DNA of 64,000 bases from Thuidium tamariscinum (lineage: Eukaryota; Streptophyta; Bryopsida; Hypnales; Thuidiaceae): positions 9,625,501 to 9,689,500 of the forward strand of contig OX344749.2 of the NCBI GenBank assembly GCA_947034885.2. Reading direction: 5' to 3'. The notes below the pieces were generated by a model. It made no database searches. It had not been told where the DNA came from and was given only the letters and a program-made list of their open reading frames with translations. This document shows positions 1,088 through 62,333 of this stretch, piece after piece; position 1 is the stretch's first letter; the number at the start of each line of letters is the position of its first letter. The position numbers and the translations under genes were made by a program.

Positions 1088-1720
1088 ATAAGATGCCTAA
1101 GGTCAACAAAGACATGAAATTTGAAGAGAATTGATCATTCTGAAACCTCAAAGCATGAAAGTACTTGTGCTGAAAAGCATTCATTGCCAAACAACCTAAC
1201 ATTATTTGGGAATTGGTTTAGAGTCCCAAGTAAAAAAACCCAATGCCATCAAAGACAAGAATGTGGAAAAAACAACCTCATGATCACAAAGGCGATCTCC
1301 AAAACAATCCACTTGTAGAGAATAATGTCCATCAGAACTACGTAACATCCGTACCAAACCTCACCGCCTATCCACAGACCAACAAACATCCTTCAAGCCA
1401 ACCCTTGTCTTCACCTACAACTCAGTCCAAAAAAGGAACAGGGAAAGACCCTAAAAACCCTAAACCCTAAAAACCCTAAGCAAGATGCCTAATGCCAGCA
1501 AAGACATGAATGTGGAGAAAGATCCCATGAATGTGATCTTTATAATGATCCACTTGTAGAGGAAAATGTTCATCGAACTACCTAAGATCGAGCAAACCAA
1601 CAATTCTGTGCTCTCCTCAAACTCGGTCAAAAACAGGAGAGGCAGCAGCCAAAGGGAAAGCTGAAAATACTAAGCAAGATGCTTAATTCCCACCGAGACA
1701 GGAATATGGAGAGCATGTCC
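1088..1720. repeat. Degenerate tandem repeats at the 3' end of the subtilase gene
   Basis: Related blocks recur at about 1088, 1240, 1483 and 1678. Each contains a variant of GATGCCTAATGCC followed by CAAAGACATGAATGTGG. Two further blocks beginning CCACTTGTAGAG lie about 235 bp apart (1309-1345 and 1549-1580). The block at 1678-1720 holds the last codons of the subtilase reading frame on the minus strand, so the downstream blocks look like decayed duplicates of the gene's 3' tail. The boundaries are approximate because the copies have diverged. Confidence 0.5.
1448..1480. repeat. Telomere-like CCCTAAA tract
   Basis: A short run of ACCCTAAA and ACCCTAAAA units matches the Arabidopsis-type plant telomere repeat in degenerate form. 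A second short patch lies at 2144-2161 inside the last subtilase intron. Such interstitial telobox tracts are common near plant genes. This is not evidence of a chromosome end. Confidence 0.5.
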
Positions 1721-4700: not shown

Positions 4701-7700
4701 AATGTGCAGATGAGAAGTTTGCCACTGATCACAGCTTTGTTATACAAAGAAGGCTCTTGGCAATCGGTTGGGGAGAAGAGCGGATTGCTTTGTCCTTGCA
4801 GAGTTGCATCTTGAGCCAAAATCAACGGGTACAGGGCTTCACCTTTCGTTGCCGCTGTGATCACAAAACGCCAATACTCCATCAGAAGCGTAACATCACG
4901 CATGATCACAGAAGTAGATTAACGTGCATGAGAGGGGAGAGAATCTAGCTTGCTTAAGATTCAGATTTCTTTGGATGTACATTTCCAAGTTCTCGAGAGA
5001 AACACTTCTGTAATTCTATTGCAAACTTCATGAAAATCTTAAGAAGTTTTTTGTAAATTAGAAGCTACAAAAAGTTCATGAAATTACTTACGAGCTATTC
5101 CTGTTCCGTTCAGAACCCTCTGATCTCCAAGAGTGATCACGTTCCGATAAGTCCTGTCATCGACTCCGGCTGCCACCGAGAGCACCCAGGGACTGAAGGA
5201 TGTTACCGACTTGGGAAAAGGACCCCCGTTTCCAGCCGCTTGAACAACAAGAATGTTCGCTTTGACAGCATTCAGGAGTGCTACATCCAGGATGTTCAAG
5301 AAGGTACTTGGAGGACCTCCAGGTGGGGCATTAGGTCCAAGAGACAGATTTAGTATATCGACTCCATCCGCAACAGCCTGCAACAAAAATCACTGCCATT
5401 TGAGATTCTACAAGTATAACAAAGGCTTTGCATCAAAGTTAGCAACAAATGCTTTTCATCATGTCTGTATGTTAAAGCTCGCACACGTGTCACAACTGAG
5501 GTTTTCCTCGATGTCAATGAGCTTGGAGAGACTTGAAGTGACCAAGTTGACAATGGAAAACGAACCTTATCGCAAGCGGCAATAACATCTGGTATGAACC
5601 CTCCTATGATCGGAAACAATGCCTTGTAAACTGCAATTCTGAACGACAAAAGAAGAACTTGCAGTTAGTTCGCTTGAACAGGAATACCTGGCACTAACAA
5701 ACACAGGAATGCGGAAACAGTCAAGATATTACCCCTATTCACATGCACTGTTCCTGCCGATTTTAAAATTCGTCCCTATTTTAATTATACTTGGCCCAGT
5801 GTGATCAGTTGATTCATCGTTTTAAAACCATGAATCCTTGGCTCTTCAGGGGTTAAATGCCTTTCCGAACTATGCTCCCTTGACGAAGACAACTAAGTGC
5901 AGGAACAACAGTTCATGCCTAGGACTTCCTAAGTTTAAATTAAGGATCCTTGCTTGTGTGTACCACAAACAAGATAATTACATTCTTGCCTCATTAATTT
6001 AATCGATGTAGAAGCCAGGTGATTTACACAGGCTTGGTAGATGAAGTCTAGCTCCTGTAACTTTCACGTATAATGCAATTGAACTCACCGCGCTCTGGGT
6101 GCCATGCCACTTGCTTTGCCATATGTAACATTGTTGAGTACAACTGGCACTCCGTAGTTTCCAGCAGCAGTAGAAGCCACGTGACTGCAACAAACTCTCC
6201 ACAAAAGACTGAGAAATAGGCAAAAAAAAATTTGTGCGGAACGTACTGCACAAGCTCAATCATATTAATATATAGACACCTGCCTTTATCAATTAGACAT
6301 GTTCTCTGGTAGAGGATTATGTTGCATTCGAATTGAGCATGACAGAAACAATGTACACATTTCATTAAACAATGAAACGATGATGATAGGAGAGCCCTAG
6401 AAGTGAGCGAAGAAATTTAAATAACCTTCCATGACCGTCGCCGTCCAACGGGGATGCGTAATGCAGAGAGGCATTAAATACACCATCTTCACTAGCAGCG
6501 GCAGCAAAATGCCGAGCTGCAACGATTTTCCCATTGCAAGAGCCCGCGGGAAACTCTTTGGCAACCTCACAGCCTCCTCGGAACTTCGGCAGAGGACCGT
6601 AGGGCTTCTCTCCTGCAGTCGAGAAACTCGGATGCGTGGGGTCAATGCCGGTGTCCACTATGCCGATGACCACGTTTTCCCCGGCACCCAATACTCCACC
6701 CATCTCCGACCAAATCCCCAAAGGTAAGTTTAGTCCCAGATACTCGGGGGTGTGCACCGTTGCCACTTGCACTTTGTAACTCTTCTGCACATGCACCACT
6801 GAGGGATGCTCCGCCAACTTCGTAGCCTACAACAGGGACACAAGTCTTCGAGATTATTATTTGCCGATACACCAAAATGGGTTTCAGGTTAGTGAATTCT
6901 CGCTCACACAAGCGCACTGTCATCAATCTATGATAACAACAAAATAACATATGCTTACAGAACTTATAAAATCTGGATTCACAAATTCAAGGACGTCAAT
7001 GGAGATATCTAGATTGATTTCTGTAGTGACCAAACACGAAGCTTGTTAAAAGTGCCCAAATTTGTACTCCCTCCGTACCGAAATAAGTGTCCGCATTGGA
7101 ACCTCATGTTCTTTATACCAATTTCATTGACCCTATTGTAAAATGCATAGTTTAGAAGGGTCCAAATTTTATTTGACCACAATCAACGAAGAACATTGTC
7201 TGTGTTCACTGCAACCTCAATGAATCACTGAAAAAAACGGTCGCTAATTTCCAATGTGGACACACTTCCAATGGGGACGGAGGGAGTATATCTTTTATGT
7301 GCCTAATTATCTCATTCTACCGATACAACTCTCAATACAACCCGGCCATGATTCTGCCTCTAACGTGGTAGTCAAAGCTGGAGGGGGTAGACAACTGCCT
7401 ACGTCGACATCTTTGGTAATCGATTATGTGCAAAAGTCTCCAGATGAGAATTTGCCCATGAAACATACTTTTCACTATTAACAAAATCACGTTTAGACGT
7501 CAGATATATTCGCATCAGGACCTCATAGAGCTTAAAATTCTCTACCTGGTGAGACGTCAGTCGAACAGCAGCCCCATTGAGGATGTGAGTGAAGCTGTAG
7601 AGCTTGGTGAAGTTCAGCTCCTGGAAGACATCGCTGAGAACTGAATGGTGCTTTTCAATTAAATGATTTTCATACTTCCGCACCAAATCCTGTACACGAA

Positions 7701-13700: not shown

Positions 13701-14587
13701 TTTTAAAAAAAAAATTATTTGCAAAAAATAAAAAATTCCAGGATTTTCCCAAGCGGCCGAGCGAGGGGGTCACTCACCCCTTCCCCTGAGGGAGAGGTTG
13801 GTAAATTCGAAATTAACCACTACAAAAGTTACGATTTATCCCTGGCCGGGGCAATTCCCTGGCGCCCAAAAGGAGTTCAAAAGTTGTTCGTCTTCATCTT
13901 CATCTTCTTCTTCGAATTCAAGTTCCTCGAAGTTCACATTCTCTGTTGCCGCAGGGTGTAAGTTATCATGCCCTGAACTGCTGCGGCACGAATGCTGGTG
14001 TGCATGGGCCATCGGAAGAGGCCGGCAGTTCAGCGCTCTTCTGCTTCTTCTGTGCAAAGTTCAGTTGTTTCCAGGAAAAAAATAAAAAAGGAAAGGTGAG
14101 GCCATCCCTGACCTAACCGAAAGTAGCTGACCTAATGTAGATTTGGAGGTCCTCCTCGCGACTCGGAACAATTGGCGGAATCAGGGTGTGCCTGTACTAT
14201 TTTTCGCATGTTTGCATGAACAGTCGCCACCTTCTCCTTCGTCGTTCTCATAGCTGCTTCTTTCTGCATTCTCAAACGTAGGGTTACTCGTATTATTTTG
14301 ACTCTTTGAATTTAGGCATCACGTCCTACTCGGAATTTCATCACCCCCTTTTTGTAGTTGTACAAATCACAGCATCACGGGGATCGGAGGGTCTTCCATT
14401 GCCGCACGTTTGATCGAGTTTCCAAATTTCTAGATCTTGGAAGAGTCATGCTGCTTTGATGTGTGCATTCAGTGTGCTTCGTCGATGAGAGCGCAGTGGT
14501 GATGTGGTGATCCTAGTTGGAGCTTTCTAGGGAAGAAGGGCGCCATCGTCCAGGAATTAGGGTTTAGGAATTAGCAAGGGTTGCGAA
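13701..14587 (+). promoter_or_regulatory. Probable promoter and 5' leader of the TMEM45-like gene
   Basis: The composition becomes GC-richer towards the start codon. An unstable TCATCTTC/TCGTCTTC pyrimidine tract lies near 13890-13920. Open frames here (13719-14085) are low in complexity and not recognised. No TATA box or transcription start could be fixed. Confidence 0.4.
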
Positions 14588-16382
14588 ATGGGGACGCTCG
14601 TGGGCCACGTTGTGCCATCGATAGTGCTGGTGGCGATGGGGTTGTGGCATTTGGTGTGTGTGTTCGCAAACTACGTGTACTCTCCCCGGGATTACGTCGC
14701 CAAGGCCTGGCACCCCGTGACATGGTTGCCGAATCGGTGGAAGCAGATCGAGCTCTGGTTGCTGGTGGTGTTCATTCCGCTGGCCGTCTTCTACGAGCTT
14801 GGAATCTCCACCAACTTTGGGGCCGTCGTGGATGGGATCATCCCGAAGAACCGTGTGACCAGCTTCGAGCACTCGACCACGCTCATCATGTTCTGGATGT
14901 TCGCCGTGATCGTGTTGCTGAGCGAGACCACGACGGTGTTGCCGTTTCCCGCGGATGCTTCCTTCTTGTTTGCTAGTATCGCCTTTGGGATGGAGTGTCT
15001 GTCGGTGACGCATGAAGCTGCGCGGAACCAGGGGCTGGAGAGCCAGTGCAACCTGCTGCTGGGGTACATTGCTGGGTTGTGTGCTGTCACTTCAGGTACG
15101 AATCTTCTTGTGGATCTAATTGTGAGGAGAAAGAAATGTGATAACGATACTAGGTTCTAGTTATTTCTTACCTCAAATTCCTAGGGTGTGAGTGTTCATC
15201 ATTTTGAACGCTTTGATTTAGTGAACATTCACCCCACGCTTTGAGACATCCACCTTGTTTCGAACGTATGTACTTCGTCATTTAAACATCATTCTGACCA
15301 GGCTAGGATGGTTAGGGCATCTCGTTACAAACGTTTGGGCTAGTTTGATCCATAGAGGACCTAGAGGCTCAAAACCCGACCTGATGCTTTAAAACCCCGA
15401 ACCTGGCTTTAGTGTGATCTTTGAAGACTCTCATGAATCACGAGTCCTGCGGAGAGGAGTCCGTGCAGACCGTTCTACTTAGGTTCTTATGAATAATTTA
15501 CGAAATTGGGGTTTCCTTGGGACTTTTATGCAGTCACTGAGCACAATATCTGTAACCTGAAATTTTCCTCCCCTGGCTCTTTTGTGTCATATTCCTAGAT
15601 GATTAAAATATCCTTTACCCTGGATTTAGGTATGGATTTAAATTAAAGTGTCATCGGCAAGGTCCATATTTTTGTGGGATTGAAAATGGTCCTGCTATGA
15701 CAGTTCTGTCGGGTCTTGTACATACTTTGGAGAGGATTTTATCACCTTCCAAACCGCTTGATTCCTGGGTCTGCACAGCGAGTCGTCTATTCTTCTCCCG
15801 TGCCAAACTTTGTGTGCTGAGTTTAGCAACTGAGATTACTCCCCTGACCGTCTTCATTGAGGCTTTCTTTTCAATTTCTTAGTTTTGCTGTTTCTTTAGC
15901 AAGCCCCATTGGGAAAAGTTTTATGTCAAGGTTTTGTCTTGGGTGTGGAATTATTTCCAGTCAAATCTCTAATGGCAGACACGAATGCAATGACAGGTTT
16001 TCTTGCTCTCCGGCCCAAACTATTTCTCGTCGACGTAGTTTTGTGCATGGGGATGATCTTGCAAGGCACGTGGCTGTTCCAAATTGGGCTATACCTCTAC
16101 GTGGAGGACTACATCCCTCAAGGGTGCCATTACAGGCTGGACCTTCCCACTGGGATCGACGGGTCCACCGTCTGCGATGTGGAAACCTCCAGAATTCGGG
16201 CAGTAGCTCTGATGAACTTGGCATTCAACTTCCATGTCATCATGGTGTTGTGCTTCTCAGTTATCGTGTTTGCGATAGTGGCCAAAGTGAATGGACTCAG
16301 ACGTGGTGGGCCTGCCTATGACCCCATCTCTCGGGACACGTTGGATGCCGACAATGTGCAGATGAAGCCACTTCAACCCTAG
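14588..16382 (+). CDS. TMEM45/DUF716 family multi-pass membrane protein (2 exons)
   Basis: Exons 14588-15095 and 15997-16382 join at a GT-AG intron within a Gly codon, giving 894 nt (297 aa plus stop). The length and layout fit the plant DUF716/TMEM45 family, whose biochemical role is poorly defined. About seven hydrophobic segments are visible, near residues 10-30, 52-72, 98-116, 122-142, 152-172, 178-200 and 240-265. Conserved-looking polar residues sit inside membrane segments: the His before STTLIMFW, FGMECLSVTHE, and the His in AFNFHVIM. The C-terminal tail is short and cytosolic-looking (ending QMKPLQP). The last 43 bp of this coding sequence are repeated at 40769-40811, where copy B of the segmental duplication begins. 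Membrane localisation is well supported; function is not. Confidence 0.9.
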
Positions 16383-20760: not shown

Positions 20761-22919
20761 AAATAAGATTTGCGGAGTGTGAGGGTTATGATGCTCGGGA
20801 CTAGTAATGCTGGGGATCGGGAGACTCGACAGGAGTACTAGACATAATGCCAAGTATGGTCGTATTCGTTAAAATGGTTGTTTCGAAGTGTTGCCATCGT
20901 GACATTCCAAGGCACAAAGCTTTGAAACTTAGGGGGCGTTTAGATAAGAGGATCCAGAGTATGCGCCTGGGAAAATGCAAATCTTTCGAACTTTTCTCAT
21001 TTTGAATAATGCATAAAGATAAATTGACTGTTCTAGGGAACATCGAGGTAAACAGGTCTATACATTCTCCTTGATTTGAAGGTCTTAGCATGAGGTGAAG
21101 GATGTGTAACTTGGGGCTTGAAATGAGGGGACTGATATATCATGATCTTATATCTTCTTTTTGCTGGTCAATGAGACAGCAAAACGGTTGCCTTGATTAT
21201 CAGATTTGGCATTATATCTGAGATAATCACCCTTTGTTAGTTGTCGAACAAAGGCACAAGTCCGTGAGTTGGACTTTCGGTAGTGGTTGAAAGTTGAGTT
21301 TGTGACCACTGGCTGCGTCACTGCTCCATTCCTCAATTTTTTCATACACGGTTTGCTGGTGTGAGGGGCGGCCAGTAGATGTCTTTGGTAGTGACGATTT
21401 AACTCTTGAAGGATAAACCTGCCGAGGGGTCCAGTTTTAGGATTAAACTTCATTTTCACAAAGTTCTTGATTTCATATATGTAGAAGCTTGACTAAAAAA
21501 ATGTAGTTCCAGTAATTTACTTTTTATTCATTTTCATTTTTTTCAAAATTGTTAAGATTGTAATTTTTGTGACACTTTGAAGGTTCCATCTCGAAAGCTT
21601 AAAATGCACTGCTTTTGAACTATTGTATCAATTTTCTGTTCGAGAAATTTATGGATAAAATCATATAGATTTCAATTTAATGTTTTAATTATGAGAAGAT
21701 GAAGTTAAATTCTGGATATACTTTACCACATGAGAAAATCCTACATTTATGAATGGTGCTTTAATATAGAAAGCTTATGACTTTTGACCCAACGGGAATA
21801 TGGAATGGTTAAGAGATCTACACTTTGATGCGAGAAGTTGCTCATGAAGCACTTACTAATGCCAAATCGTGTCTCTCCAGATAGAATAAATTATTTTGAA
21901 CTGTTAGGTCGGATACAGGAGTGCATCAAACTAGACATGAATGCGCAGAGTTCTTTGTTCAGATTTGGAATGTTTTAATACGGTAGTGTGGTTTGTCACT
22001 CAACCATATAAGCCGGATACTCAGTTGTTTGTTGTATTTCATCTTCCTCCATGACCTTCTAATATATTACCTTGATTGCTTTTATAAATTTGAACCGATA
22101 GTTGTCTAATGTGCCATTTTCAACATGTTTCAGAGCAAATTAATAATTCAGTTGAGCAAGCAAGCATAGCAATGTGGGTTGACGCAGTAGTTGCTTGAAC
22201 TCCAGGGAGTCCCTAGTTCAGGTGCAGTTTCTTGACCATGAAACCCCCGAAGAAACTAGGTGACAACTAGCTGGGAAAACCTCAATGCTTCAAACTGTAA
22301 ACTGTATTTTAATGCTATTTTCCGATTTTTTATATGAAAATTTTAAAATCATGAGTTATTTTTTTCTCATTCTTGCGTGGTGTGAGTTCACTTGCAAATG
22401 AAGGATATTTGTCTTTGTTGTTTTCCTCCGACAAGCTTAGAGCCTAGATTTAAGAAAAGTGGAATGGATGCAAGAATGTAGATCTTACTTCTAAAATGCA
22501 GTAGAGAATTTGTTTTCTGTCATAAATTATTGTCAGTAAAACATCTGTTACAGCAAAGTTCATGAAATTGTTCCTTACCATTATTGATTTCTTCATTCCA
22601 AAAAGAAAGTAGAATGATGGTCGATGTTCATCCTTATTCTTTTATACATACAAAATTAGTCGTAAGAGCTCAACCGTTGAGGGTGATTCCAAGAGTAAAT
22701 TTGAAATTGTTGATAATACAAGCTTGATAGCATAGGTGTAGGCGTCATCATCTGAAGGTAAAGCACATCAAGAATGAACATTGAACCATGTTTTGTAGTA
22801 GAAGAGGATTGTTTTTTGTACCTTGGATGCTACCATTGAATGATGATATCTTTATCAGGAAGAAGCGCAAACCCTTCCCACTTGCAAGGTGCTCTTGATG
22901 AGTTGTTGGTGCTTCCAAG
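20761..22919. other. Upstream DNA of kinase gene A
   Basis: This is conserved in order in copy B (44270-46550) but is AT-rich and has no consistent open frame. It probably represents leader introns and promoter-proximal sequence. Confidence 0.4.
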
Positions 22920-25900
22920 ATGTCGTTCTTTACGTTATTCAAATCAAATGTCACCGTAAATGGTAAACTTCTCATCCCTTGACAGATTTGCCTAGGTAAA
23001 ACTATAGAAGTGACATAGTATCTTGTTTGGAATGCATTTGCTCATGATGTTGTTAGATTGTTATAGTAAATTTTTTTTTGAATTCAGCAAGTCATTTTGG
23101 ATGGTTTTTTTCCTGAGCTAGTAAGGATTATGGTTAGTTCATTGTACAAAGTGATTGTTTCATCGTGTTTTTTCCTCCAGCCCATACATCGGAAGACTTC
23201 TTGAAGCTCACAAGAGAATGTATGGAGCGTGTGCAAACGATGACTTCGAAGGGTATTACGTCAACGCCTCCAAAATTCAACTATGACCAATGCAAATATC
23301 TAGCGGATAAGCTAAAATTGGTCGTAGAGAGCGTCGAGACTCTTCCACCTGGTGAGGTTACAAATTGCTTCGAAGTTATCAAGCTTGTACATGGTTTTGG
23401 AGGTGTTGTAGAGAACATCATTCAAAGTTGTCGCCAAGACAAATGGATTCAAGTTGCGATGACAATGACAAATATATCGGAGTGCATATCATCATTATGC
23501 TTTTATTTGGAGGCAATTTCGCGATCCTTTCGTGGAGTCTTGACTTCAACCTCCGTTGATGATATATATCAGTCCGAAGTGAAAATTGTTGAAGAGAAGG
23601 CATCTTTTGATAGAGAAACATTGTTGAGGAATTTGAGTGCGTTGCTTCAGAGAAAGCCAACAAGAACCTCGGAAGAGCGCCAATTGGTGACTCTTCTACT
23701 TGAGGGACTTCAACGCCAGCAACGTGACAACAATGGTAGTATGCCAAGACTTTTTCAAAATGATACAGACAATTTCAAAGTAAAGGGGAAATTGGGGAAG
23801 GGTTCTTTTGCCACTGTATTCAAGGCATCGTGGCTAGGAATTGATGTTGCTAAGAAGACATTTTTTGTTGGAGATTCACCTGCTTTTGAAAACGAAGTGT
23901 CCATTTTGCAGACATTATCCCATCCTAGCATTGCTTCTTTATTTGGCTATGCAAAGGATGATCAAGAATGTTCCCTGATCATGGAGTTAATGGACGAAGA
24001 TCTTTTCAGTTTGATTCGGAGGAGAATGAAAGAAAACAAGAAGCGGGGATATCCATTTGATATAATGGAAGCGATGGATCTGATGCTTCAGATCGGAGGC
24101 GGCATGAAATACTTGCATGAGATGCGGATTGTTCATCGGGACTTGAAATCAATGAACATCCTGGTGAAGTATGTGAAGACAAGAGACCCAAATGTTGCGT
24201 TTGTATTGGCAAAAGTTTCCGACTTTGGATTGTCAAAAATAAAACAAAACAGCTTGACCCACAGCAACCAAACTCCCAACATGGGTACTCCACGTTGGAT
24301 GGCTCCAGAAATGATAAAACTCCACCTTGTTGAAAGTTCAATTGAGATCTCAAACATTGATGCCAATGAAGCCGAAGTTGCCAAACATCCTTTCAAAAGT
24401 GATGTGTATAGCTTTGCTATGGTTTGCTACGAGATCTTGTCTGGACAAATGCCTTACTTTGAAGAGCGCTTCCCGAATGAAGTGAAGAGGAAGGTATTGA
24501 GGGGTGATCGTCCTCAGTTACCTAGTCATTGTCCTCCTGGTATGAAGTCCTTGATGGAGAAATGTTGGAATGCGGATGCCAGCAAACGTCCTTCTTTTAC
24601 TGAAATCCTTGTAGAGTTGCGACAATTACAATGTGGACTTGTAATTTCTCGTAAGTTTCTTAATCTAATTCTGTGCATTGGTTGTGAATGTATTATTATT
24701 GTAGCGGAGGATATTTTACACTAAAGATTAGAGATCTTATGTTCATGTTTCTCAATTTTGATATGTGCATGTGATATATTGAATTGATTGGACTCTTTGC
24801 TTTGCTAGGGATGCCTTTATATTTAAAGAGACTTCAAGTGTGGATTTCAAGTGGAGAATTTGAATGGGGAATTCTACCTAGAAAGTTCACAATTGGTGAA
24901 CTGAGCAGAATGACAAATGACTTTTCCATGAGTCTTGGACAAACAGATTTTGGAATATTTTATCGGGGTGTTCTTCCTGATGGGACATTGTTAGCTGTCT
25001 GGCGCTCAAATCCGTATTCTTACAGGCAGAACTTCAAAAATATTCAAGCAGAGGTACTTTCCACCCCGAGATTTGTAGTTTAAGATTTCAAAAGCTTAGA
25101 TTTAGCTCAAGTTATAACATCTGGAGGTTTATGTTTAGGATATGAGTTGAACTAGCTAATTATGCATGTATAGGAAAGCTCCACAATGAATAATATGATG
25201 CAAGTACAATATAATATATAATTTGTTTCCATCTTTTTCATTTTCATTTAGAAAATTATAATTGAAATATTGTGGCTAATTATCATTGTCGGTTAAGAAT
25301 AATTTTGATCAAAGCTGCCGGAATGTTAGGGAAATTGCTTTTCATTGAGAATATTTTTTTGTATGAAGAAATTACAAATTATAAAGAAATATTTCTATTT
25401 GGAGCATCTGCAAGACTTAATTTCCCAATTTTAATTAAGTATTCAGCATGGAATATTGATCTTCATAGCGAATAGAATAATAGAGGGTTCTATGGTTTTG
25501 GGACATATATGTTAGTGATGTGCAATGAGAACATTACAAATTATTCTTAAAGGACTAGTCATTTTAATTGTGAGTGATGGAGTAAAATATGTTTTATGCA
25601 CCCGATAAGTTGTTTTTTGTTCATTCTAATGTTTGTACATTAATTCTTAAATATTGGTAATGTCCAAAATGTCAAGATTGTTCTTTACAAATTTTCTTCA
25701 GCTTAAGAAATGCAAGCATGTTTCACCTTGAAAACTAACTGTTTTTTGGATTGAAAAATGGCTATTGAGTATGACTTCATCTTCTATGTAAGATATTATT
25801 TCATGAAAAAATTGACCGTACTTAGACCTAATCAATCTAATTCTTAGGTGACAAGTTCTTGTGAAGATCACTAGCATTCAATCTATAATCAATCTTAGAG

Positions 25901-28473
25901 GGAATTTTAATGTTTGGTTCCAGAATTTATTGGTACAATGTTGGATTCAATAGTATGGATGTGATCTATGGGTCATAATTCACAACTTGAGTTCAATAGT
26001 CATAGTTGATTATTCTTCTAAGTTACACTTTATTCCACTTTTTTTCTTTAAATTTGAAGTAACCCATGGGGTTAAGGGTATGGGTTAAGTAGGTAAATTA
26101 TAAAGAGACATCACTATGAATTTTATTGGAATTTTTGGATGATTGTGATCTAATAGTTTAGCATGACGTAAGACTCTTGTAAGAGTAAATTAAGTTGATT
26201 ATTGGAAAGCCTCTTCATGGACAAGTCTTCTCATGAATTGTATCAAGCTTGTTTGCCTTCCTGTGGTTGGTTTCACTATGATAATGTAAATTTCTTGAAG
26301 TAGTTTCAATTGGTTATTTTGATTTCATTGTAAATTTGTTTTTTCTTGCACTAATTTTGATGTTGTATTGTATTAGTTGTCACAAAATAAATAAATTCTA
26401 GTTTTGTACCTTCACTCATAGACAAGACATGTCATTGAGACTACATATATAAGACATGTCATTATGGTGTGCATTCATCTTCAAATTGGTGTAACTATCT
26501 AGTTAAATAAGACTTACTTTTCAAGTGCTTTTTGTGTGGTATATTAGATTGAATCATCCAACATTCGAAAAGGCCATCCAAACTTACTGCAACTAGTTGG
26601 TGTTTGTGTGACTCCAAAAGAGTGTTTCCTAGTCTACCCTCATATTTCAAATGGAACTGTACGTTCCCAGCTAAAAAGTAAGTTTCCTTCACAAAAAACA
26701 CACCTAATAGTGGAGAGCTTGAAATGTTGCCAATTTCTAAGAAGAAATGACATTGCTTAGAATTACACTTTATTGCATCACTTAGCATTAAATTAATTAA
26801 TGGTTTAAGACTTGTATGCGATTTTGTAACTTTGGTTTCACATGTGACTTTCTTTAACTTTGGTCTCACATATGATTTGTTTGCAGAATTTGATGATGGA
26901 AAGTCTGCTTTGAGTTTCAAGATGCGAAAACATATTGCTCTAGGAGTAGCAAAGGGATTGGCATATTTGCATGAAGAATGCAGCCCAAAGATTGTTCACT
27001 ACAATGTCCAGAGTGATAAGATTCTTCTTGATGATAAGTATGAGGCCTTGCTTTCAGGTTTTGAATTTTGTGAGGTTATTGACCCTGTGTCTTCGAGATT
27101 GATACAAAAAACTTTGGGCCACGTGAAGCGAGGCCACAAGACACCTGAAGATTTGTCCAATGGAGTGATCTCTGAGAAGGCCGACGTGTATAGCTACGGA
27201 CTTGTATTGCTGGAACTCATCACTGCACGAGATGCTTATTGTGGAGATAATTTATTTCTCCATCGTTGGGTAAGTCGCACACATTCACATGTTGGACTTC
27301 CTAAGTAGTAGTACTTCCATTCCAAGAACACACTGCTACGTAAAAAAACAAACCATTTTCCTAAGTTTGCGAGGTCTAAATTTGGATCAAACTCAATAGT
27401 AATTCCAAACCTTGAATGAAATTTTATAAGTATGAAAACACAATTATCCATTTGTATGAATATGTGATAATTGGTTGTAACATTATGAATTTAATATACT
27501 TGATATCAAGTTCATTAGTACATCCAAAGAAATGTAACTAAAAAAATAGTTAAGAATAAAACATTTTTTGTGTATAGTTTGTTTAATGGATGTGAAAATA
27601 ATATTTTCTTTGGAACAATCTGGTGTTGATTTCTATCACATAAGTCTTCTCTTCTCATTCATTTAAATTGTTGAAAGTTTTTGAATTTATATTATGAATA
27701 GCAACTTTAGTTTTGTGTGAGTAGGTTTAAGTTGGTGATTTTGTAGAGATATCCTCATGAACAAAATAGGGAAGGTCTTGTTATAAATTACATCATACTT
27801 TCTACTACATCTTGTAACAAGTTATTTCCTTATGATGTTATTTAAGTTCTTTAAATAGCACATTTTCATTAACAACCACATTATGAGTGCAAATTGTATG
27901 TGTGATATTTGTGCCATTCACTAGCTTATTAATTAAATTACATTAGTGGAGAAATTCAAATATCTTCTTTAGTTGAATTTGATCCATGGTATTTGACATC
28001 TTGCTTTTTGTATAGGTCGTAAGAGTTTGAATCTCACAAATTAATTCCTTGTCGAAATCACAGGTTTGGAGTCGGATGTATTGGGGCATCTATGACATCC
28101 AAGAATCGCATTTGAAACGAGTAGTAGACTCCAAACTTGGGGAATACAATTTGATAGAAATGGAAGATTTACTTCAAGTGAGTTGAATTCTATATTTGTT
28201 CTTGATCATATACTTTGTATCACGATATGTTATTTTCAAAGTCATGTGGATTGTATAAATGATATAGCTGAATATATAGTTTATTTGTTACTAATGATAT
28301 CAATTAGGTAGACAATTTCTTTACCTAAATTTGAAAACACATGCATGCATTCCAAGTCATTGGTATTCAAATGGATCATTTGTAATGAACAGGTGGCTCT
28401 ATCATGTACACAAGAGTTCCCACCAGCCAGGCCAAAAATGAGTGAAGTGGTGAGAATGTTGCAGCCAAAATGA
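22920..28473 (+). CDS. Tandem kinase protein: active kinase plus pseudokinase (7 exons)
   Basis: Exons 22920-22962, 23181-24650, 24809-25053, 26548-26677, 26887-27269, 28064-28177 and 28393-28473 keep phase throughout (2466 nt, 821 aa). Residues about 15-190 form a helical N-terminal region. Kinase 1 (about 214-500) looks active: Gly loop GKGSFATV, Lys240, Glu253, HRDLKSMN (Asp335), DFG (Asp362) and APE (391). Kinase 2 (about 529-815) has the exon layout and ending (ARPKMSEVVRML) of a receptor-like kinase, but its catalytic residues are lost. Lys is Trp569, HRD is HYN (667-669), the metal-binding Asn is Lys674, DFG is GFE (687-689), APE is TPE, and the Gly loop is degraded. I see no signal peptide or transmembrane segment, so it is probably cytosolic. 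Exon 1 was chosen because its ATG, frame and length are conserved in copy B; it is the least certain part. An immune signalling role is inference only. Confidence 0.82.
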
Positions 28474-30438
28474 TCTTAATGAGCATTACGCACAATGGAA
28501 TGCCATGGTGATGTACTATCTAGAAGTCAGAGTTGATTTCCAACATAGACTGACTTTTGCAATCAAGTGTTTAACCATGTTAGGCATTTCATCTTTTGGT
28601 ACTAGCTTTGAGTTTTGAACTCATTTAAAATATTGGTGATAGTAAATGGTTGTCCACCGCTACAAATAGATAAGGTAGGATGCTCTAAAAGCAACCATGT
28701 TTCTAACAGCGACCATGCCACAATGGTAAATTTTGGTTTTTGGAATGTCGTGCAGTTGTATATTTAGAGTACAGTGCGGTTGAACTTTGAAAATTCATAA
28801 CTAATTCTACACAAGTCCAAAAAAGATGAAACAACTTGGGTTAGATGTCAATTCCATTTTCCTTCCTAAAAAAATTTACTAAAAATTGATTTTGAGGGTT
28901 CAGCTTCCCCGAAAAGGCAATCAGCTCTTAAGTGGTTGCTTTTAGAGTAGTCTACCTTACATTTATGGGAAGTTTCAAGGATGAGCATGCTCAATATAAT
29001 AGTTATGCATCTACATAGCATGGACATCTATGTCAAGTTGTGTACTTAATATATTTGTTTGTATCTCCTATATGCCAAAGCCTTTTTTTGAGCTTCTTGA
29101 AGTTTGCTTAAAACTATTGTAAACAAAAAGACCAAATTTTCTATTAGTTTGGTCAATCTTTTAAGAATTGTAACTAAATTTAGTTGTAATACAGATAAGA
29201 GAATATAGGAAAAGACTACACAACAACATCACTTATGGATTGAAAGGTTATAATGTTTGATCAAGATTGTTAAAGTGATTTGAAGTTTTTCAATTTTCTT
29301 GTTACATTTCAACCCTAAAATTGAGGTAATGAAAAAAATGAGGGGAAAAGATTTAATGTGTAGTACTTCACCATGGTTAATCTAAGTCTTTTAAAAAACA
29401 TTTAAACCTCTAATAGTCAAAGCAGGGTGTACTTTCAAAATAAGCATAAATTGCCAAGAACTTGAACAATTCTTTTGTTCATTTCTTTTGGAGATTGGAT
29501 AGAATGTGAGATAGAATTACCTATACTCAATCACTTAACCCTCGAATACCGCCCCAAACATTTGGTGTTTATTGAATGACAAAGAATCTTTCTTTGAAGG
29601 ATAGAAATGCAACTTTTCATCCTTGGTATCAAAGGTGGAAAGGGAAGATTTTCTATAGTTCTTTGACTTCTAATGAGTATATTTGACTTATTCAAAGTAG
29701 ATGATGTCACTTGGTATAAATATGCATGATTTCCACAGCCACTAATCTATCCTTCAAGGGTTAAGAAATTTTGGAACAATTTATAAAGAGTAAAAAGCTA
29801 TGCAAATTTTTCTCATGTAGAAAGATAGGAAATATAGAGATTACATATTTTTCATAAGTTCATTCCCCAAATTGTAATTATTATGGTTTTTGGAAGCCAA
29901 AAAGCACTTTGAACCTATAGCCAATGTCTAAAGTCTTCTAATTGAGATCATATCTAGGACTACTTTTCTACTTGGTACTTTCCACATACTTTATGATACT
30001 TTGGAACATGTGTCATAACTTTATTAGTCCCAACCTAGAAAATGGAAAAAAGTAAATTCCAAGCTTTGATTGGAAATCTCTTCAAGCCTTGGATGGAAAT
30101 AGCCGCGTTCTACACATTGGATATAGAACCTTGGTTGGAAATAGGTGGTTCTACCTTAACCCCTAGCTAATAGCCCAAGGCACCAGAATTTGATGTTTGC
30201 AAAACTTTGAAGTTAAATAAAACCTAATTAAGTTGTTATTTTTAGTAGATTATATTTTTGGAAAGTTCTTTTCAAGGTCTCGTTTTAGTGTCAAAAATCC
30301 GATTTGGAGAATGAATGATAGTGATTTTTCTATTCAAGATTTTGTACAAGGATACCCATTGCAATCTTGAATTTCTATAGTGTTGAAAGCTCTTGAATAG
30401 GAGCCTCAAATGTACTAGATCTTGGAGAAAAAATCACA
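28474..30438. other. Downstream DNA of kinase gene A
   Basis: AT-rich 3' flank, also present in copy B (from 52191) and copy C (from 62334). It includes the 222-bp TTAA MITE listed separately. No gene was recognised. Confidence 0.5.
29539..29760. mobile_element. 222-bp TTAA-flanked MITE, copy A
   Basis: The ends CCCTCGAA and TTCAAGGG are inverted, with TTAA immediately outside on both sides (29535-29538 and 29761-29764). Copy C has the same element (63095-63314). Copy B has a single TTAA at the matching site (54079-54082) and nothing inserted. Confidence 0.75.
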
Positions 30439-44260: not shown

Positions 44261-46550
44261 TGCGTAAGGAAATAAGATTTGCGGAGTGTGAGGGTTATGA
44301 TGCTCGGGACTAGTAATGCTGGGGATCGGGAGACTCGACAGGAGTACTAGACATAATACCCGAGTATGGTCATATTCGTTAAAATGGTTGTTTCGAAGTG
44401 TTGCCATCGTGACATTCCAAGGCACAAAGCTTTGAAACTTAGGGGGGTTTAGATAAGAGGATCCAGATTATGCGCCTGGGAACATGCAAATCTCTTGGAC
44501 TTTTCTCATTTTGAATAATGCATAAAGATAAATTGACTGTTCTAGAGAACATCAAGATAAACAGGTCTATACATTTTCCTTGATCTGATGGTCCTAGCAT
44601 GAGGTGAAGGACATGTTTGGGGATACATTTTCCTTGATCTGAAGGTCTTAGCATGAGGTGAAGGATGTGTAACTTGGGGCTTGAAATGAGGGGACTGATA
44701 TATCATGATCTTATATCTTCTTTTTGCTGGTCAATGAGACAGCAAAACGGTTGCCTTGAATACCAGATTTGGCATTACATCTGAGATAATCACCCTTAGT
44801 AAGTTGCCGAGCAAAGCCACAAGTCCGTGAGTTGGACTTTCGGTAGTGGTTGAAAGTTGAGTTTGTGACCACTGGCTGCGTTTTATTGTAGAACTGGATT
44901 ATGGTAACCATGTTGGCAGACCCCATGATCAGCTATTTCTCCAAGTCCCGTCGTCACTGCTCCATTCCTCAATTTTTTCATACACGGTTTGCTAGTGAGA
45001 GGGGCGGCCAGTAGATGACTCTGGTAGTGATGATTTAACTCTTCAAGGACAAACCTGCCGAGGGGCACAGTTTTAGGGTTAAACTTGAATTTTACAAAGT
45101 TCTTGATTATATATGTCTGAAAGCTTGACTAAAAAAATGTAGTTCCAGTAATTTACTTTTTATTCCTTTTTATTTTTCCCAAAATTGTTAAGATTGTAAC
45201 GTTTGTGACACTTTGAAGGTACCATCTCGAAAGCTTAAAATGCACTGCTTTTGAACGATTGTATCAATTTTTTGTTAGAGAAATTTCTGGATTAAATCAT
45301 ATGAATTTCAATTTAACGTTTTAATTATGAAAAGATGAACTTAAATTTTGGATATACTTTACCACATGAGAAAATATTACATTTTTGAATGGTGCTTTAA
45401 TATAGAAAGCTTATGACTTTTGACCCAACAGGAATATGGAATGGTAAAGCGATCTACACTTTGATGCCAGAAGTTGCTCATGAAGCACTTACTAATGCCA
45501 AATCGTGTCTCTCCAGATAGAATAAATTATTTTGAATTGTTAGGTTGGATACGGGAGTGCATCAAACTAGACATGAATGCGTAGAGTTCTTTGTTCAGAT
45601 TTGGAATGTTTTAATACAGTAGTGTGATTTGTCACTGAACTATATAAGCGAGATACTCAGTTGTTTGGTGTATTTCATCTTCCTCCAAGACCCTCTAATA
45701 TATTACCTTGATTGCTTTTATAAATTTCAACCGATCATTGTCTAATGTGCCATTTTCAACATGTTTTAGAGCAAATTAATAATTCAATTGAGTAAGCAAG
45801 CATAGCAATGTAGGTTGACGTTGGAGTTGCTAGGATTCTAGGGAGTCCCTAGCTCATGTGTAGTTCTTTGACCATGAAAACTCCAAAGAAACTAGGTGAT
45901 GGCTAGCTAGAAAAACCTCAATACTTCAAGCTTAAACTGTATTTTAATGCTATTTTCCGATTTTTCATATCAAAATTTTTAAATCTTGAATTTTTTTTTC
46001 TCATTCTTGCGTGGTGCGAGTTCACTTGCAAATGAAGGATATTTGTCTTTGTTGTTTTCCTCCGACAAGCTTAGAGCCTAGATTTAAGAAAAGTGGAATG
46101 GATGCAAGAATGTAGATCTTAATTCTAAAATGCAGTAGAGAATATGTTTTTGGTCATAAATTATTGTAAGCAAAACATCTATTATTGCAAATTTCATGAA
46201 ATTGTTCCTTAGCACTACAGATATCTTCATTCCAAAAATAAAGTAGAAGGATGGTCGATGTTCATCCTTATTCTCCTATATATACAACATCAGTTATAAC
46301 AGTTGAATCGTAGAGGGTGATTCCAAGAGTAAATTTGAAACTGTTGATAATACAAGCTTGATGGCATAGGTGTAGGCGTCATCATCTGAAGGTAAAGCAC
46401 ATCAAGAATGAACATTGAATCATGTTTTGTAGTAGAAGATTATTTTTTGTACCCTGGATGCTACCTCTGAATGATGATGTCTTTATTAGGAAGAAGCGCA
46501 AACCCTTCCTACTTGCAAGGTGCTTTGGATGAGTTGTTGGTGCTTCGAAG
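44261..46550. other. Upstream DNA of kinase gene B
   Basis: This aligns with 20761-22919. It contains a short local tandem duplication near 44575-44665 (CATTTTCCTTGATCTGA repeated) that is absent from copy A. No gene was recognised. Confidence 0.4.
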
Positions 46551-48653
46551 ATGTTGTTGTCTACGTTCTTCAAATCAAATGTCACCATAAATGGTAACTT
46601 CTCATCCCTTTATAGATTTGCCTAGGTAAAACTATAGAAGTGACATTTGATTAGTATCTTGTTCGGAATGCATTTATTCATGATATTGTTAGATTGTAAT
46701 AGTAAATCTCAAAGTTTGTTTTTATTGAATTCAGCAAGTCATTTGAGATGGTTTTTTCTCCTTACGATAGTAAAGATTATGGTTAGTTCATTGTACAAAT
46801 TGATTGTTTGATTGTGTTTTTCACCCAGCCCATTCATCTGAAGACTTCTTGAAGCTCACAAGAAAATGTATGGAGCGTGTGCAAAAAGTGACCTCGAAGG
46901 GTATTATGATAACTCCTCCAAAATTCAACTATGATCAGTGCAAATATCTAGCTGATAAGTTGAAGTTGGTCGTGAAGAGTACTGAGGCTCTTCCACCTGA
47001 CGAGGTTACGAACTGCTTCGAAGTTATCAAGCTTGTACATGGTTTTGCAAGTGTTGTAGAGAACATCATTCAAAATTGTCGCCAAGATAGATGGATTCAA
47101 GCTGCTATGACAATGACAAATATATCGAAGTGCATATCATCACTAGGCTTTTATTTGGAGGCAATTTCGCGATCCTTTCTTGGAGTCTTGACTTCAACCT
47201 CCATTGATGATATATATCAGTCCGAAGTGAAAATCGTTGAAGAGAAGGCATCTTCTGATAGAGAAACACTGCTAAGGAATTTGAGTGCTTTGCTTCATGT
47301 AATGCCAACAACTTGGAAAGTGCGCCAGTTGGCAACTCTTCTACTTGAGGGACTTCAACACCGGCAACATCACAAAAACGGTAGTATGCCAAGACTTTTT
47401 CAAAATGTCAAGGACAACCTCATAGTAAAAGAGCAATTGGGAAGGGGCTCTTTTGCCACTGTATTCAAGGCATCGTGCCTAGGAATTGAAGTTGCTAAGA
47501 AGACATTTTATGCTCGAGATTCACCTGATTTTGAGAACGAAGTGTCCATTTTGCAGACACTATCCCATCCTAACATTGCTTCTTTATTTGGCTATGCAAA
47601 GGAGGATCAAGAATGTTCCCTGATCATGGAGTTAATGGACGAAGATCTTTTCAGCTTGATTCGGAAGAGAATGAAAGAAAACAAGAAGCGGGGATATCCA
47701 TTTGATATAATGGAAGCTATAGATTTGATGCTTCAGATTGGAGGCGGCATGAAATACTTGCATGAGATGCGGATTGTTCATCGAGACTTGAAAGCATTGA
47801 ATATCCTTGTGAAACATGTGAAGACAAGAGACTCAAAGATTGCTTATGTATTGGCAAAAATGTCCGACTTTGGATTGTCAAAAATAAAACAAAACAGCTT
47901 GACCCACAGCAGTCAAACTCCCAACATGGGCACTGCACGTTGGATGGCTCCGGAAATGATAAAACTCCACCTTGCTGGAAGTTCGGTTGAGATCTCGAAC
48001 ACTGATGCTAGTGATGTCAAGGTTGCCAAACATCCTTTCAAAAGCGATGTGTACAGCTTTGCTATGGTTTGCTACGAGATCTTGTCTGGAGAATTGCCTT
48101 ACTTTGAAGAGTGCTTCCCAAATGAAGTGAAGAAGAAGGTATTGAAGGGTGATCGTCCTCGATTACCGAGTCATTGTCCTCCAGCTCTGAAGTCCTTGAT
48201 GGAGAAATGTTGGAATGCGGATGCCAGCAAACGTCCTTCTTTTACTGAAATTTTTGCAAAGTTGCGACAATTACAATGCGGACTTGTAATGTCTCGTAAG
48301 TTCCTTCATCTAATTCTGTGCATTGGTTGTGAATGTATTATTATCATAGCGGAGGTTATTGTACACTAAGGATTGGAGATCTTATGTTTATGTTTCTTAA
48401 GTTGGATATGTTCCTGTGACATATTGAATGGATTAGACTCTTTGCTTTGCCAGGCATGATTTTTTATAAGAAGAGAATTCAAGTGGGGACTTCAAGTGGG
48501 GAAATCGAATGGGTAATTTTACCCAAAAAGTTCACAATTAATAAACTGAGCAAAATGACAAATTACTTTTCCGCAAGTGACAAGATTGGAGATGGACGTC
48601 TTGGCACATTTTACAAGGGTGTTCTTCCTAATGGAACAGTAATAGCTGTCTAG
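46551..48653 (+). CDS. Kinase gene B: helical region, active-looking kinase 1, then a TAG stop
   Basis: Exons 46551-46593, 46829-48295 and 48454-48653 give a 569-aa product. The N-terminal helical region and kinase 1 match copy A closely and look active: Gly loop GRGSFATV, Lys239, HRDLKALN, SDFG and APE. The third exon enters the second kinase domain, where the Gly loop GDGRLGTF is better preserved than in copy A. It ends at TAG (48651-48653), exactly where copy A has TGG and an active kinase has its VAIK lysine. The product would thus be a single kinase with a short tail. A GT at 48640 (ACA|GTAATA) would splice in frame to the next exon and skip the stop; transcript data would decide. Regulation is probably similar to copy A, since the upstream DNA is shared. 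Confidence 0.75.
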
Positions 48654-51600
48654 CGCTCAAGACCCGATGGTTACTGGAAGAGCTTGATAAATATTCAAGC
48701 AGAGGTAATTTCCACCACGAAATTTGTAGTTTAAGATTTCAAAAGCTTAGATTTAGCTTATAACATTGGGAGGTTTGTGTTTAGGATATGAATTGAAATA
48801 ATTAATTATGCATGTAAAGAAAAGCTCCGTAGTGAATAATATGATGCAATTACAGTCTAATATATAATTCGTTTTTATCTTTTTCATTTAAATTGAAATA
48901 CCGTGGCTAATTATCATTGTCGGTAAAGAATAATTTTGATCAAAGCTACTAGAATGTTACGGAAATTGCTTTTTCTTGAGAATATTTTTTTGTATGAAGA
49001 AATTACAAATTATAAAGAAATATTCCTATTTGAAGCATCTGCAGGACTTAGTTCCCCAATTTTAATTAAGCATTCACCATGGAATATTGATCTTGATAGC
49101 GAGTAGAATAATAGAGGGTTCTATGGTTTTGGGACATATATGTTAGTGATGTGCAATGAGAACATTACAAATTACTCTTAAAGGACTAGGCATTTATATT
49201 TTGAGTGATGGAGTAAAATATATTTTATGTACCCAATAAGTTGTTTTTTGTTCATTCTAATGTTTGTACATTAATTCTTAAATATTGGTAATGTCCAAAA
49301 TGTCAAGATTGTTCTTCACAAATTTTCTTCAGTTCAAGAAATGCAAGCATGTTTCACCTTGAAAACTAACTGTTTTTTGGATTGACAAATGGCTATTGAG
49401 TATGACTTCATCTTCTATGTAAGATATTATTTCATGAAAAAATTGACCGTACTTAGACCTAATCAATCTAATTCTTAGGTGACAAGTTCTTGTAAAGATC
49501 ACTAGCATTCAATCTATAATCAATCTTAGAGGGAATTTTAATGTTTGGTTTCAGAATTTATTGGTGCAATGTTGGATTCAATAGTATGGATGCGATCTAT
49601 GGGTCATAATTCACAACTTGAGTTCAATAGTCATAGTTGATTATTCTTCTAAGTTACACTTTATTCCACTTTTTTTCTTTAAATTTGAAGTAACCCATGG
49701 GGTTAAGGGTATGGGTTAAGTAGGTAAATCACGAAGATACATTACTATGAATTTTATTGGAATTTTTGGAAGATTGTGACTAATAGCTTAGGAGGATATA
49801 AGACCCTTGTAAGAGTAAAATAAGTTGATTATAGAAGAGCCTCTTCATGGACAAGTCTTCTCGTGATTTGTATCATGCTTATTTACCTTCTTGTGGTTGG
49901 TTTTGTGTGATAATGTAAATTTCTTGAAGTAGTTTCAATTGGTTATTTTGATTTTCATTGTAAATTTGTTTTTTCTTGCACTAATTTTGATGTTGTATTG
50001 TATTGCTTGTCACAAAATAAATAATCTCTAGTTTTGTACCTTCACTCATAGACAAGACATGTCATTGAGACTACATATATAAGACATGTCATTCTGGTGT
50101 GCATTCATCTTCAAATTGGTATAACTATCTAGTTAATTAAGACTTACTTTTCAAGTGCTTGTTGTGTGGTATATTAGATTAAATCATCCGGCATTCAAAA
50201 AGCACATCCAAACCTCTTACAAGTAGTTGGTGATTGTGTGACTCCAAATGACTGTTTTCTAGTCTACCCTGATATTTCAAATGGAACTCTACGTTCCCAA
50301 CTACAAAGTAAGTTTCTATCACAAAAAACACACCTAATAGTACAAAGTCTAAGATGTTGCCAATTTTTAAGAAGAAATGTTTATCTCTTTACTTAATCTT
50401 CCAAATGTCTCCAAATTGTAATTTTCATTTCATCTGACATCACTTAGAATCACACTTTATTGCATCACTTAGCATTAAATTAATTAATGGTTTAAGACTT
50501 GTGTGCGATTTTGCAACTTTGGTTTCACATGTGACTTTCTTTAACTTTGGTCTCACATATATTTTGTTTTCAGAATTTGATGATGGAAAGCCTGCTTTGA
50601 GTTTCAAGATGCGAAAACATATTGCTCTAGGAGTGGCAAAGGGATTGGCGTATTTGCATGAAGAATGCAGCCCAAAGATTGTTCACCACAATGTCCAGAG
50701 TGATAAGATCCTTCTTGATGATAATTATGAGGCCTTGCTTTCAGGTTTTGAATTTTGTGAGGTTATTGACCCTGTGCCTTCGAGATTGATACAGAGAACT
50801 TTGAGCTACATGGAGCGAGGCTACATGGAACGAGGCTACATGGCACCTGAATATTTTAACGAAGGAGTGGTCTCTGAGAAGGCCGAGGTTTATAGCTACG
50901 GAGTTGTATTGCTGGAACTCATCACTTCACGAGATACTGATTGCGGAGTTTCATATCTCGCTGACTGGGTAAATTGCTCACATTCACATGTTGGACTTCC
51001 TAAGTAGTAGTACAACCATTCCAAGAACACATTGCTACGTAAGAAAGCAAACCATATTCCTAAGTTTGCTAGGTCTAAATTTGGATCAAACTCAATAGTA
51101 ATTCCAAACCTTGAATGAAATTTTATAAGGATGAAAACACAATTATCCATTTGCATGAATATGTGATAATTGGTTGTAACATTGTGAACTTAATATACTT
51201 GATATCAAGTTCATTAGTACATCCAAAGAAATATAACTACAAAAATAGTTAAGAATAAAACATTTTTGTATATAGTTTGTTTAATGAATGTGAAAATAAT
51301 ATTTTCTTTGGAACAATCTGGTGCTGATTTCTATCACATAAGTCTTCTCTTCTCATTCATTTAAATTGTTGAAAGTTTTTGAATTTGTATTATGAATAGC
51401 AACTTTAGTTTTGTGTGAGCAGGTTTAAGTTGGTGAATTTGTAGAGGTATCCTCATGAACAAAATAGGGAAGGTCTTGTTATAAATTACATCATACTTTT
51501 TACTACACCCTCTGACAAGTTATTTCCTTATGATGTTATTTAAGTTCTTTACATAGCACATTTTCATTAACAACCACATTATGAGTGCAAATTGCATGTG

Positions 51601-52190
51601 TGATATTTGTGCCATTCACTAGCTTGTTAACTAAATTACATTAGTAGAGAAATTCAAATATCTTCTTTATTCTAGTTGAAGATGATCCATGGTATTTGGC
51701 ATCATGCCTTTGTATAGGTCGTAAGAGTTTGAATCTCACAAATTAACTTCTTGTCGAAATTACAGGTTAAGACTGAGGTGGTCTTTAAAAGTTTGGACAT
51801 CCATGAGATCCGAGAGTTGCATTTGAAACGAGTAGTAGACTCCAAACTCCAAGAATACAATTTTTTAGAAATGAAAAATTTACTTCAAGTGAGTTGAATT
51901 CTATACTTGTTCTTGATCATATACTTTGTATCAAGATATGTTCTTTTCAAAGTCATGTAGATTGTCTAAATGGTTTAGATGCATATATAGTTTATTTGTT
52001 ACTAATGATACCAAATAGGTAGACAATTTCTTTACCTAAATTTGAAAACACATGCATGCATTCCAAGTCATTGGTACTCAATTGGATCATTTGTAATGAA
52101 CAGTTGGCTCTATCATGTACACAATCATCCCCATCAGCACGGCCAAAAATGAGTACAGTGGTGAGAATGTTGCAGCCAAAACAACCTTGA
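48654..52190 (+). pseudogene. Second kinase domain of gene B, beyond the stop
   Basis: The remainder of exon 3 (48654-48704) and exons 50178-50307, 50574-50968, 51766-51888 and 52104-52190 are all open and keep phase, ending QPKQP and TGA. Only the single TAG interrupts the full tandem-kinase frame. Like copy A it is a pseudokinase (HHN for HRD, GFE for DFG). It has a 15-bp in-frame duplication giving YMERG twice before a canonical YMAPEY. It could be translated by readthrough or from an alternative splice form, or it may simply be decaying. Confidence 0.75.
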
Positions 52191-61633: not shown

Positions 61634-62333
61634 CATGTTATAAATTACATCATCCTTTCTACTACATCTTGTGACAAGTTATTTCCTTATGATGTTATAT
61701 AAGTTCTTAATAGCACATTTTCATTAACAACCACATTATGAGTGCAAATTGTATGTGTGATATTTGTGTCATTCACTAGCTTGTTAATTAAATTACATTA
61801 ATGGAGAAATTCAAATACCTTCTTTACTCTAGTTGAAGATGATCTATGGTATTTAACATCTTGACTATTGTATAGGTTGTAAGACTTTGAAGCTTACAAA
61901 TTAACTTCTTGTTGAAATCACAGGTTAAGACTCGGGTGAGCTTTATTAATTCAGACATCCATGAATCAGATTCGAAACGAATAGTAGACTCCAAACTCCA
62001 AGAATACAATTTTACAAAAATGAAAAATTTACTTCAGGTGAGTTGAATTCTATATTTGTTCCTGATCAAATACTTTGTATCAAGATATGTTCTTTTCAAA
62101 GTCATGTGGATTGTCTACATGGTTTAGTTGCATATATATTTTATTTGCTACTAATGATACCAAATAGGTAGACAATTTCTTTACCTAAATTTGAAAACAC
62201 ATGCATGCATTCCAAGTCATTGGTACTCAAGTGGGTCATTTGTAATGAACAATTGGCTCTATCATATATACAATCGTCCCCATCAGCCAGACCGAAAATG
62301 AGTGAAGTGGTGAGAATGTTGCAGCCAAAATAA
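61634..62333 (+). pseudogene. 3' fragment of a third tandem-kinase gene
   Basis: Only the last two exons are present: 61924-62037 (38 codons, open) and 62253-62333 (ending LQPK and TAA). The acceptor before the last exon is AA instead of AG (62251-62252). There are no upstream exons in this copy. It is therefore a truncated, non-functional fragment, closer to copy B than to copy A in sequence (for example VKTRV and SKLQEYNF). Confidence 0.85.

Follow-up and report, generated by a model that had tools for sequence, protein, structure and literature searches.

The 64,000-nucleotide stretch of the moss Thuidium tamariscinum analyzed here (the window) carries, at 22920..28473, a gene that we call copy 1 and that unites two known kinds of plant protein, the MLKL type and the tandem kinase-pseudokinase. 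Its predicted product opens with an MLKL-like HeLo executioner and brace, continues with a kinase of MLKL type whose catalytic residues are intact (kinase 1), and ends with a receptor-like kinase (RLK) domain of SERK/BAK1 type that has lost its catalytic residues (kinase 2). Tentatively, and at slightly less than even likelihood, we read the whole as an MLKL-type protein fused to a SERK/BAK1-type pseudokinase and working as a bait- or platform-controlled cell-death switch. The parts of copy 1 are listed below; HeLo, brace and kinase 1 together are called the module.

22920..28473, + strand: copy 1 gene, HeLo, brace, kinase 1 and SERK-type pseudokinase, 7 exons, 821 residues (from GT-AG borders, phases and homology)
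22920..22962, + strand: exon 1, start codon and 14 codons (both ATG and donor conserved in copy 2)
23181..24650, + strand: exon 2, N-terminal helices and the whole of kinase 1
23183..23734, + strand: MLKL-like executioner (HeLo/DUF1221, about 23183-23542) and brace helices (about 23546-23734)
23753..24637, + strand: kinase 1, MLKL-type, catalytic residues intact
24651..24808, + strand: intron 2, 158 base pairs, separating the two kinase parts
24809..25053, + strand: exon 3, start of kinase 2, with Trp569 (TGG at 25000) in place of the VAIK lysine
26548..26677, + strand: exon 4, kinase 2
26887..27269, + strand: exon 5, kinase 2, with HRD changed to HYN and DFG to GFE
28064..28177, + strand: exon 6, kinase 2
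28393..28473, + strand: exon 7, end of kinase 2 and stop

The first-pass annotation had joined seven exons in phase into an 821-residue frame, and this was confirmed: the exons total 2466 nucleotides without an internal stop, and all seven are GT-AG bordered with compatible phases. Two kinase stretches of the product, and only those two, passed the Pfam cut-offs. A paralogue 23.6 kb away (copy 2) keeps every splice site of the model, and the indels that separate the two copies are multiples of three in 5 of 5 exonic cases and in 3 of 14 intronic ones (hypergeometric p 0.0048); because of these two features we consider the gene model to be beyond chance. Copy 1 very probably makes a single fused transcript, in which the 24650/24809 junction is predicted. 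We also considered two adjacent genes, an MLKL gene followed by a separate SERK-like pseudokinase gene starting at the ATG at 24811, since exon 3 opens with an ATG in both copies (24811 and 48456). This we judge very unlikely: the gap between the parts is only 158 base pairs, and in each copy its borders are GT-AG and the phases match. Annotated proteins of Physcomitrium patens and Ceratodon purpureus show comparable joins, with a TWTKA linker common to the kinase pairs of the four related Ceratodon proteins. In addition, kinase 2 begins (in exon 3) at a juxtamembrane-like stretch, and neither a receptor ectodomain nor a membrane segment lies ahead of it in the predicted product.

Separate searches with each kinase domain placed them in different lineages, MLKL-type for kinase 1 and SERK/BAK1-type for kinase 2. 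Kinase 1 (about residues 206-500) retains GKGSFA, VAKK, HRDLKSMN, DFG and APE, and the four catalytic residues (K/D/N/D) are kept in 101 of 115 kinases of its type, drawn from homologues P0001-P0105 and the window. It had been described as a RAF/MLK-type kinase with all key residues; the residues are indeed intact, and the placing can be refined. In single-sequence comparison the bit scores were 151 for 6ka4, 147 for 6lba, 139.5 for 9p9u (labelled EGFR), 118.5 for B-RAF and 107.9 for CTR1. A plain RAF/CTR1-type kinase was rejected, as the AtMLKL chains score higher. With a 21-protein profile, AtMLKL2 and AtMLKL3 (6lba and 6ka4) were the sole two chains with E < 1e-52, and by profile and end-to-end structure match they are the nearest solved relatives of the module. 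By its sequence, then, kinase 1 is an MLKL-type domain, with plant MLKL as closer kin than RAF or CTR1. The N-terminal helical region that had been noted ahead of it is borne out, and models as an MLKL executioner and brace, that is, a four-helix HeLo/DUF1221 bundle followed by brace helices.

The order of executioner, brace and kinase is the same as in the plant MLKL proteins AtMLKL2, AtMLKL3 and wheat Pm13, to which the moss protein adds an RLK-type pseudokinase at the C-terminus. The AtMLKLs are reported to be pseudokinases, unlike moss kinase 1, which is catalytically intact by residues; Pm13 has a complete kinase and likewise keeps the catalytic residues, but that kinase is of the RLK DLSV type, whereas moss kinase 1 is of the MLKL type (PMC10951266). 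The module probably, though by no means surely, has cell-death activity.

Kinase 2 (about residues 525-821) was expected to be a receptor-kinase-like domain without Lys, HRD, Asn and DFG, and the residue changes agree: the glycine loop reads GQTDFG, the lysine is Trp569, HRD is HYN, the catalytic-loop Asn is Lys, DFG is GFE and APE is TPE, so that all four of K/D/N/D are lost. Its best solved relative is BAK1, at 199 bits against 128 for the runner-up. In a tree of 63 kinase domains, whose reference set is rich in SERKs as it was drawn from a search with kinase 2, it groups with the SERKs (99/98) on a long branch. SERK/BAK1 co-receptor kinases are therefore its closest kin by both PDB score and tree, from which the predicted moss product differs in having no leucine-rich repeat (LRR) or membrane segment and in the loss of the catalytic residues. 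We conclude that kinase 2 is, on sequence grounds, a SERK/BAK1-type receptor kinase domain turned pseudokinase. Plain pseudogene sequence was rejected for copy 1 kinase 2 by the open frame, the splice sites and the indels in threes.

Comparison of copy 1 with copy 2 revealed contrasting substitution patterns in the two halves of the gene. The HeLo-kinase module is 83.9% identical between the copies over 484 aligned residues. The ratio of nonsynonymous to synonymous substitution rates (dN/dS, Nei-Gojobori) comes to 0.36 in the HeLo part, 0.34 in kinase 1 and 0.96 in kinase 2. With the intron substitution spectrum the values are 0.57 and 0.55 for HeLo and kinase 1 (P 0.016 and 0.011 for a deficit of nonsynonymous changes) and 1.36 for kinase 2 (P 0.079 for an excess of them); nonsynonymous to synonymous changes number 114:34 in kinase 2 versus 88:60 in the rest (p 0.0017). 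On neither measure, 0.96 or 1.36 with P 0.079, is positive selection on kinase 2 proven. The exons of kinase 2 differ at 147 of 950 sites versus 161 of 2688 in their introns; the introns of this half (25054-26547, 27270-28063, 28178-28392) differ at 5-6% of sites and the exons at 10-22%. Because synonymous sites of kinase 2 differ 1.9-2.4 times more than introns predict, the introns are no clean yardstick, and conversion, context effects or selection could lie behind the low intron and high exon divergence. From the dN/dS values and the indel pattern together, kinase 2 changes fast with its frame held, which fits diversification, or relaxed constraint on a domain that is still translated.

A rather unlikely alternative is that the functional protein consists of just the MLKL part, with intron 2 retained or kinase 2 dispensable, and that the SERK-like piece is a decaying passenger of the fusion. 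A dN/dS near 1 in kinase 2 would suit this, as would copy 2, in which kinase 2 has a stop at 48651 and a final stop displaced by two codons and the module is still open. Retention of intron 2 stops the copy 1 frame after kinase 1, at 24722-24724, and a stop after kinase 1 likewise follows in copy 2; in addition, of the 70 homologues placed in the tree of modules described below, 30 fall in a module-only class. On the other hand, the kinase 2 frame and all splice sites are intact in copy 1, the kinase 2 indels are multiples of three in 4 of 4 cases (p 0.011) with 0 frame-breaking indels where 3.4 are expected (P 0.033), and the layout recurs in other mosses. We also observed that the retained intron (24651-24724 and the copy 2 equivalent) would give a similar short hydrophobic, cysteine-bearing tail in both copies.

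The first-pass annotation had the fusion layout right, but overlooked the additional copies in the window and the layouts in other mosses that carry other receptor kinases. The copies and the neighboring genes are as follows.

46551..52184, + strand: copy 2, module open, kinase 2 interrupted, every exon border kept
46551-46593, 46829-48295, 48454-48704, 50178-50307, 50574-50968, 51766-51888, 52104-52184, + strand: copy 2 exons
48651..48653, + strand: copy 2 TAG stop at the VAIK lysine site (TGG, Trp569, in copy 1)
61924..62330, + strand: copy 3, truncated to exons 6 and 7
1670-6826, - strand: neighboring gene, subtilase
14561-16382, + strand: neighboring gene, DUF716 protein

When the window was compared with itself, 21316-28672 matched 44952-52383 at 89%, with weaker matches on either side. 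A large, rearranged tandem duplication (16338-36383 and 40767-64000, with blocks 75-90% identical) encloses the kinase gene, and a partial third unit starts at about 60132. Fold-back repeats, with a 90-92% match to the reverse complement of the same stretch, are present at 54763-55831 and 53202-53347.

For comparison with other mosses we took the 120 homologues listed of 3011, where identifiers such as P0001 are rows of that list. All 120 were scanned with HeLo, kinase 1 and RLK profiles, and rows longer than 640 residues or with more than one kinase were reported. Above P0109 in the list, every homologue whose organism is named is from a moss (Physcomitrium patens, Ceratodon purpureus or Sphagnum); the highest identity among the 120 is 55%, over part of the query, and the source species is apparently absent from the database searched. 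The module is followed by a full-size RLK-type kinase in nine of them (P. patens P0003 and P0006; C. purpureus P0013, P0014, P0016, P0025, P0029, P0038 and P0039). P0044, P0047 and P0081 have only an RLK kinase fragment after the module, P0022 and P0035 have a lectin-type RLK before it, and P0119 has kinase 1 and RLK kinases with no HeLo match in the profile scan. Counting copy 1 with the nine, kinase 1 retains the full K/D/N/D set in every one of the 10, and kinase 2 has lost at least one catalytic residue in 8 of 10; the second kinases of P0029 and P0039 keep all four, with DCF for DFG in P0039.

The second kinases are of different descent. That of P0003 is FERONIA/Pto-type (349 and 308 bits, versus 190 for BAK1), that of P0029 is nearest to BRI1 (128 bits), and that of P0013 is equally distant from several receptor kinases (168-172 bits). 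P0003 and P0006 are 90.8% identical in the module (467 aligned residues) and 31% in kinase 2; the P0006 gene model may be faulty, with kinase 2 lacking its start. Approximately unbiased (AU) tests, in which the kinase 2 groupings were defined with the tree already in view, rejected a single clade, with one fusion at the root of all 11 moss kinase 2 rows (p-AU 2e-62), a clade of the window and P0003 (p-AU 2.5e-6), and a clade of P0003 with a Ceratodon quartet (p-AU 0.0062); the window with the Ceratodon quartet was rejected only at p-AU 0.034. In a tree of 72 modules, the C-terminal RLK kinase label (11 rows, two of them with fragments, the window copies not counted) needs at least five changes on well-supported branches. 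We take these results as evidence that the same module captured RLK kinase domains several separate times in mosses, as far as the sequences tell.

The module was also seen with other partners. Among Ceratodon NB-ARC proteins, P0049 at least carries it, and eight predicted moss chains (P0049, P0052, P0062, P0009, P0011, P0015, P0036 and P0070), some of which may be mis-joined gene models, link it to NB-ARC, TIR, WRKY, HSP70, MBOAT acyltransferase or IRG-type GTPase domains. P0059 (Ceratodon purpureus, 1307 residues) is a phytochrome-domain protein with HeLo (789-979) and kinase 1 (1004-1286) at its C-terminus. We take it to be the old "light-sensor protein kinase" of Ceratodon; if so, that oddity would be a phytochrome-MLKL fusion. 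P0106-P0108 (831-866 residues) are another type of tandem kinase, in which Pfam MLKL_N, just above its cut-off, precedes two kinase domains; no relation of their N-terminal part to the HeLo part of the window was detectable by hhalign (0.4%).

Among described systems, the tandem kinase-pseudokinases (WTK1/Yr15 class) show the same order of active kinase then pseudokinase, and the claim of an active-plus-pseudokinase fusion of two kinase lineages is upheld: in one predicted chain, K/D/N/D are kept in kinase 1 and all four are lost in kinase 2. Membership in the WTK class holds for the layout but not for the domain make-up. The 92 proteins of the published set include one from P. patens and have no additional conserved domain, whereas the moss protein has the HeLo executioner and brace ahead of an MLKL-type kinase 1; the polyphyletic origin by fusion reported for that set is common to both (PMC6170490). 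Moss kinase-NBS-LRR proteins (PNL/Pkn-NLR) are already known (PMC3352924, PMC3991678). The PpC24 kinase is reported as Pto-like (PMC3991678), and the response to the kinase domain of a P. patens NLR was "modest yet variable" (PMC11218826). Ceratodon P0049, with its NB-ARC domain, has the module in common with the copy 1 protein, which itself has no NB-ARC or LRR. The available portions of PMC6170490, PMC3352924, PMC3991678 and PMC11218826 do not name the pre-kinase part as HeLo or MLKL. No description of an MLKL-tandem-kinase fusion was found in the literature searched, as far as its texts were available, with subscription journals and newer tandem-kinase surveys outside its scope.

Computation supplied the anatomy of the protein, its kinship to MLKL, the descent of kinase 2 from a SERK, the lost catalytic residues, the separate RLK captures and the contrasting substitution patterns. 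We infer that the module executes and signals, with the RLK pseudokinase as bait or restraint. The protein would be inactive at rest, its pseudokinase serving as a bait or regulatory platform that resembles the co-receptor BAK1/SERK. Binding or modification of the pseudokinase by a pathogen factor or receptor partner would change the restraint on the module, upon which kinase 1 would signal and the HeLo bundle would oligomerize and act on membranes. BAK1/SERKs and FERONIA are hubs attacked by pathogens, and for that reason a copy of either would be sensible as bait. Lineage swapping, lost catalysis and the fast change of kinase 2 are indirect signs of an integrated decoy, and a decoy or sensor role for the pseudokinase is possible, if somewhat short of probable.

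Kinase 2 could instead be not an immune bait but a regulatory or scaffold domain through which the MLKL-kinase attaches to receptor complexes, during development or in signalling by SERK receptors. A SERK-type kinase 2 would suit docking to SERK partners, and other chains join the module to a phytochrome (P0059) or to HSP70, neither of them an evident bait; the swapping of several RLK lineages and the fast change of kinase 2 suit a bait better than a fixed docking surface, and we hold the scaffold to be unlikely. A broader proposal, which we advance as doubtful, is that of a moss receptor class outside the NLR/RLK scheme, with sensor and executioner in one chain. In such a class an MLKL executioner (HeLo, brace and active kinase) would repeatedly have captured sensors, namely pseudokinase baits (SERK/BAK1 in the window, FERONIA-type in P. 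patens and further receptors in Ceratodon), NB-ARC, TIR, WRKY, HSP70 and phytochrome, and copy 2, having lost only the bait, would be a co-oligomerizing partner.

Wheat tandem kinases depend on another protein to execute their response. Here, a predicted MLKL executioner and a bait-like pseudokinase stand in one chain, in an early-branching lineage of land plants. The same module with swapped pseudokinases would offer a natural series for testing pseudokinases as decoys. The layout also suggests a hypothesis to be tested on other carriers of the module, namely the Ceratodon phytochrome-kinase and one or more Ceratodon kinase-NB-ARC proteins.
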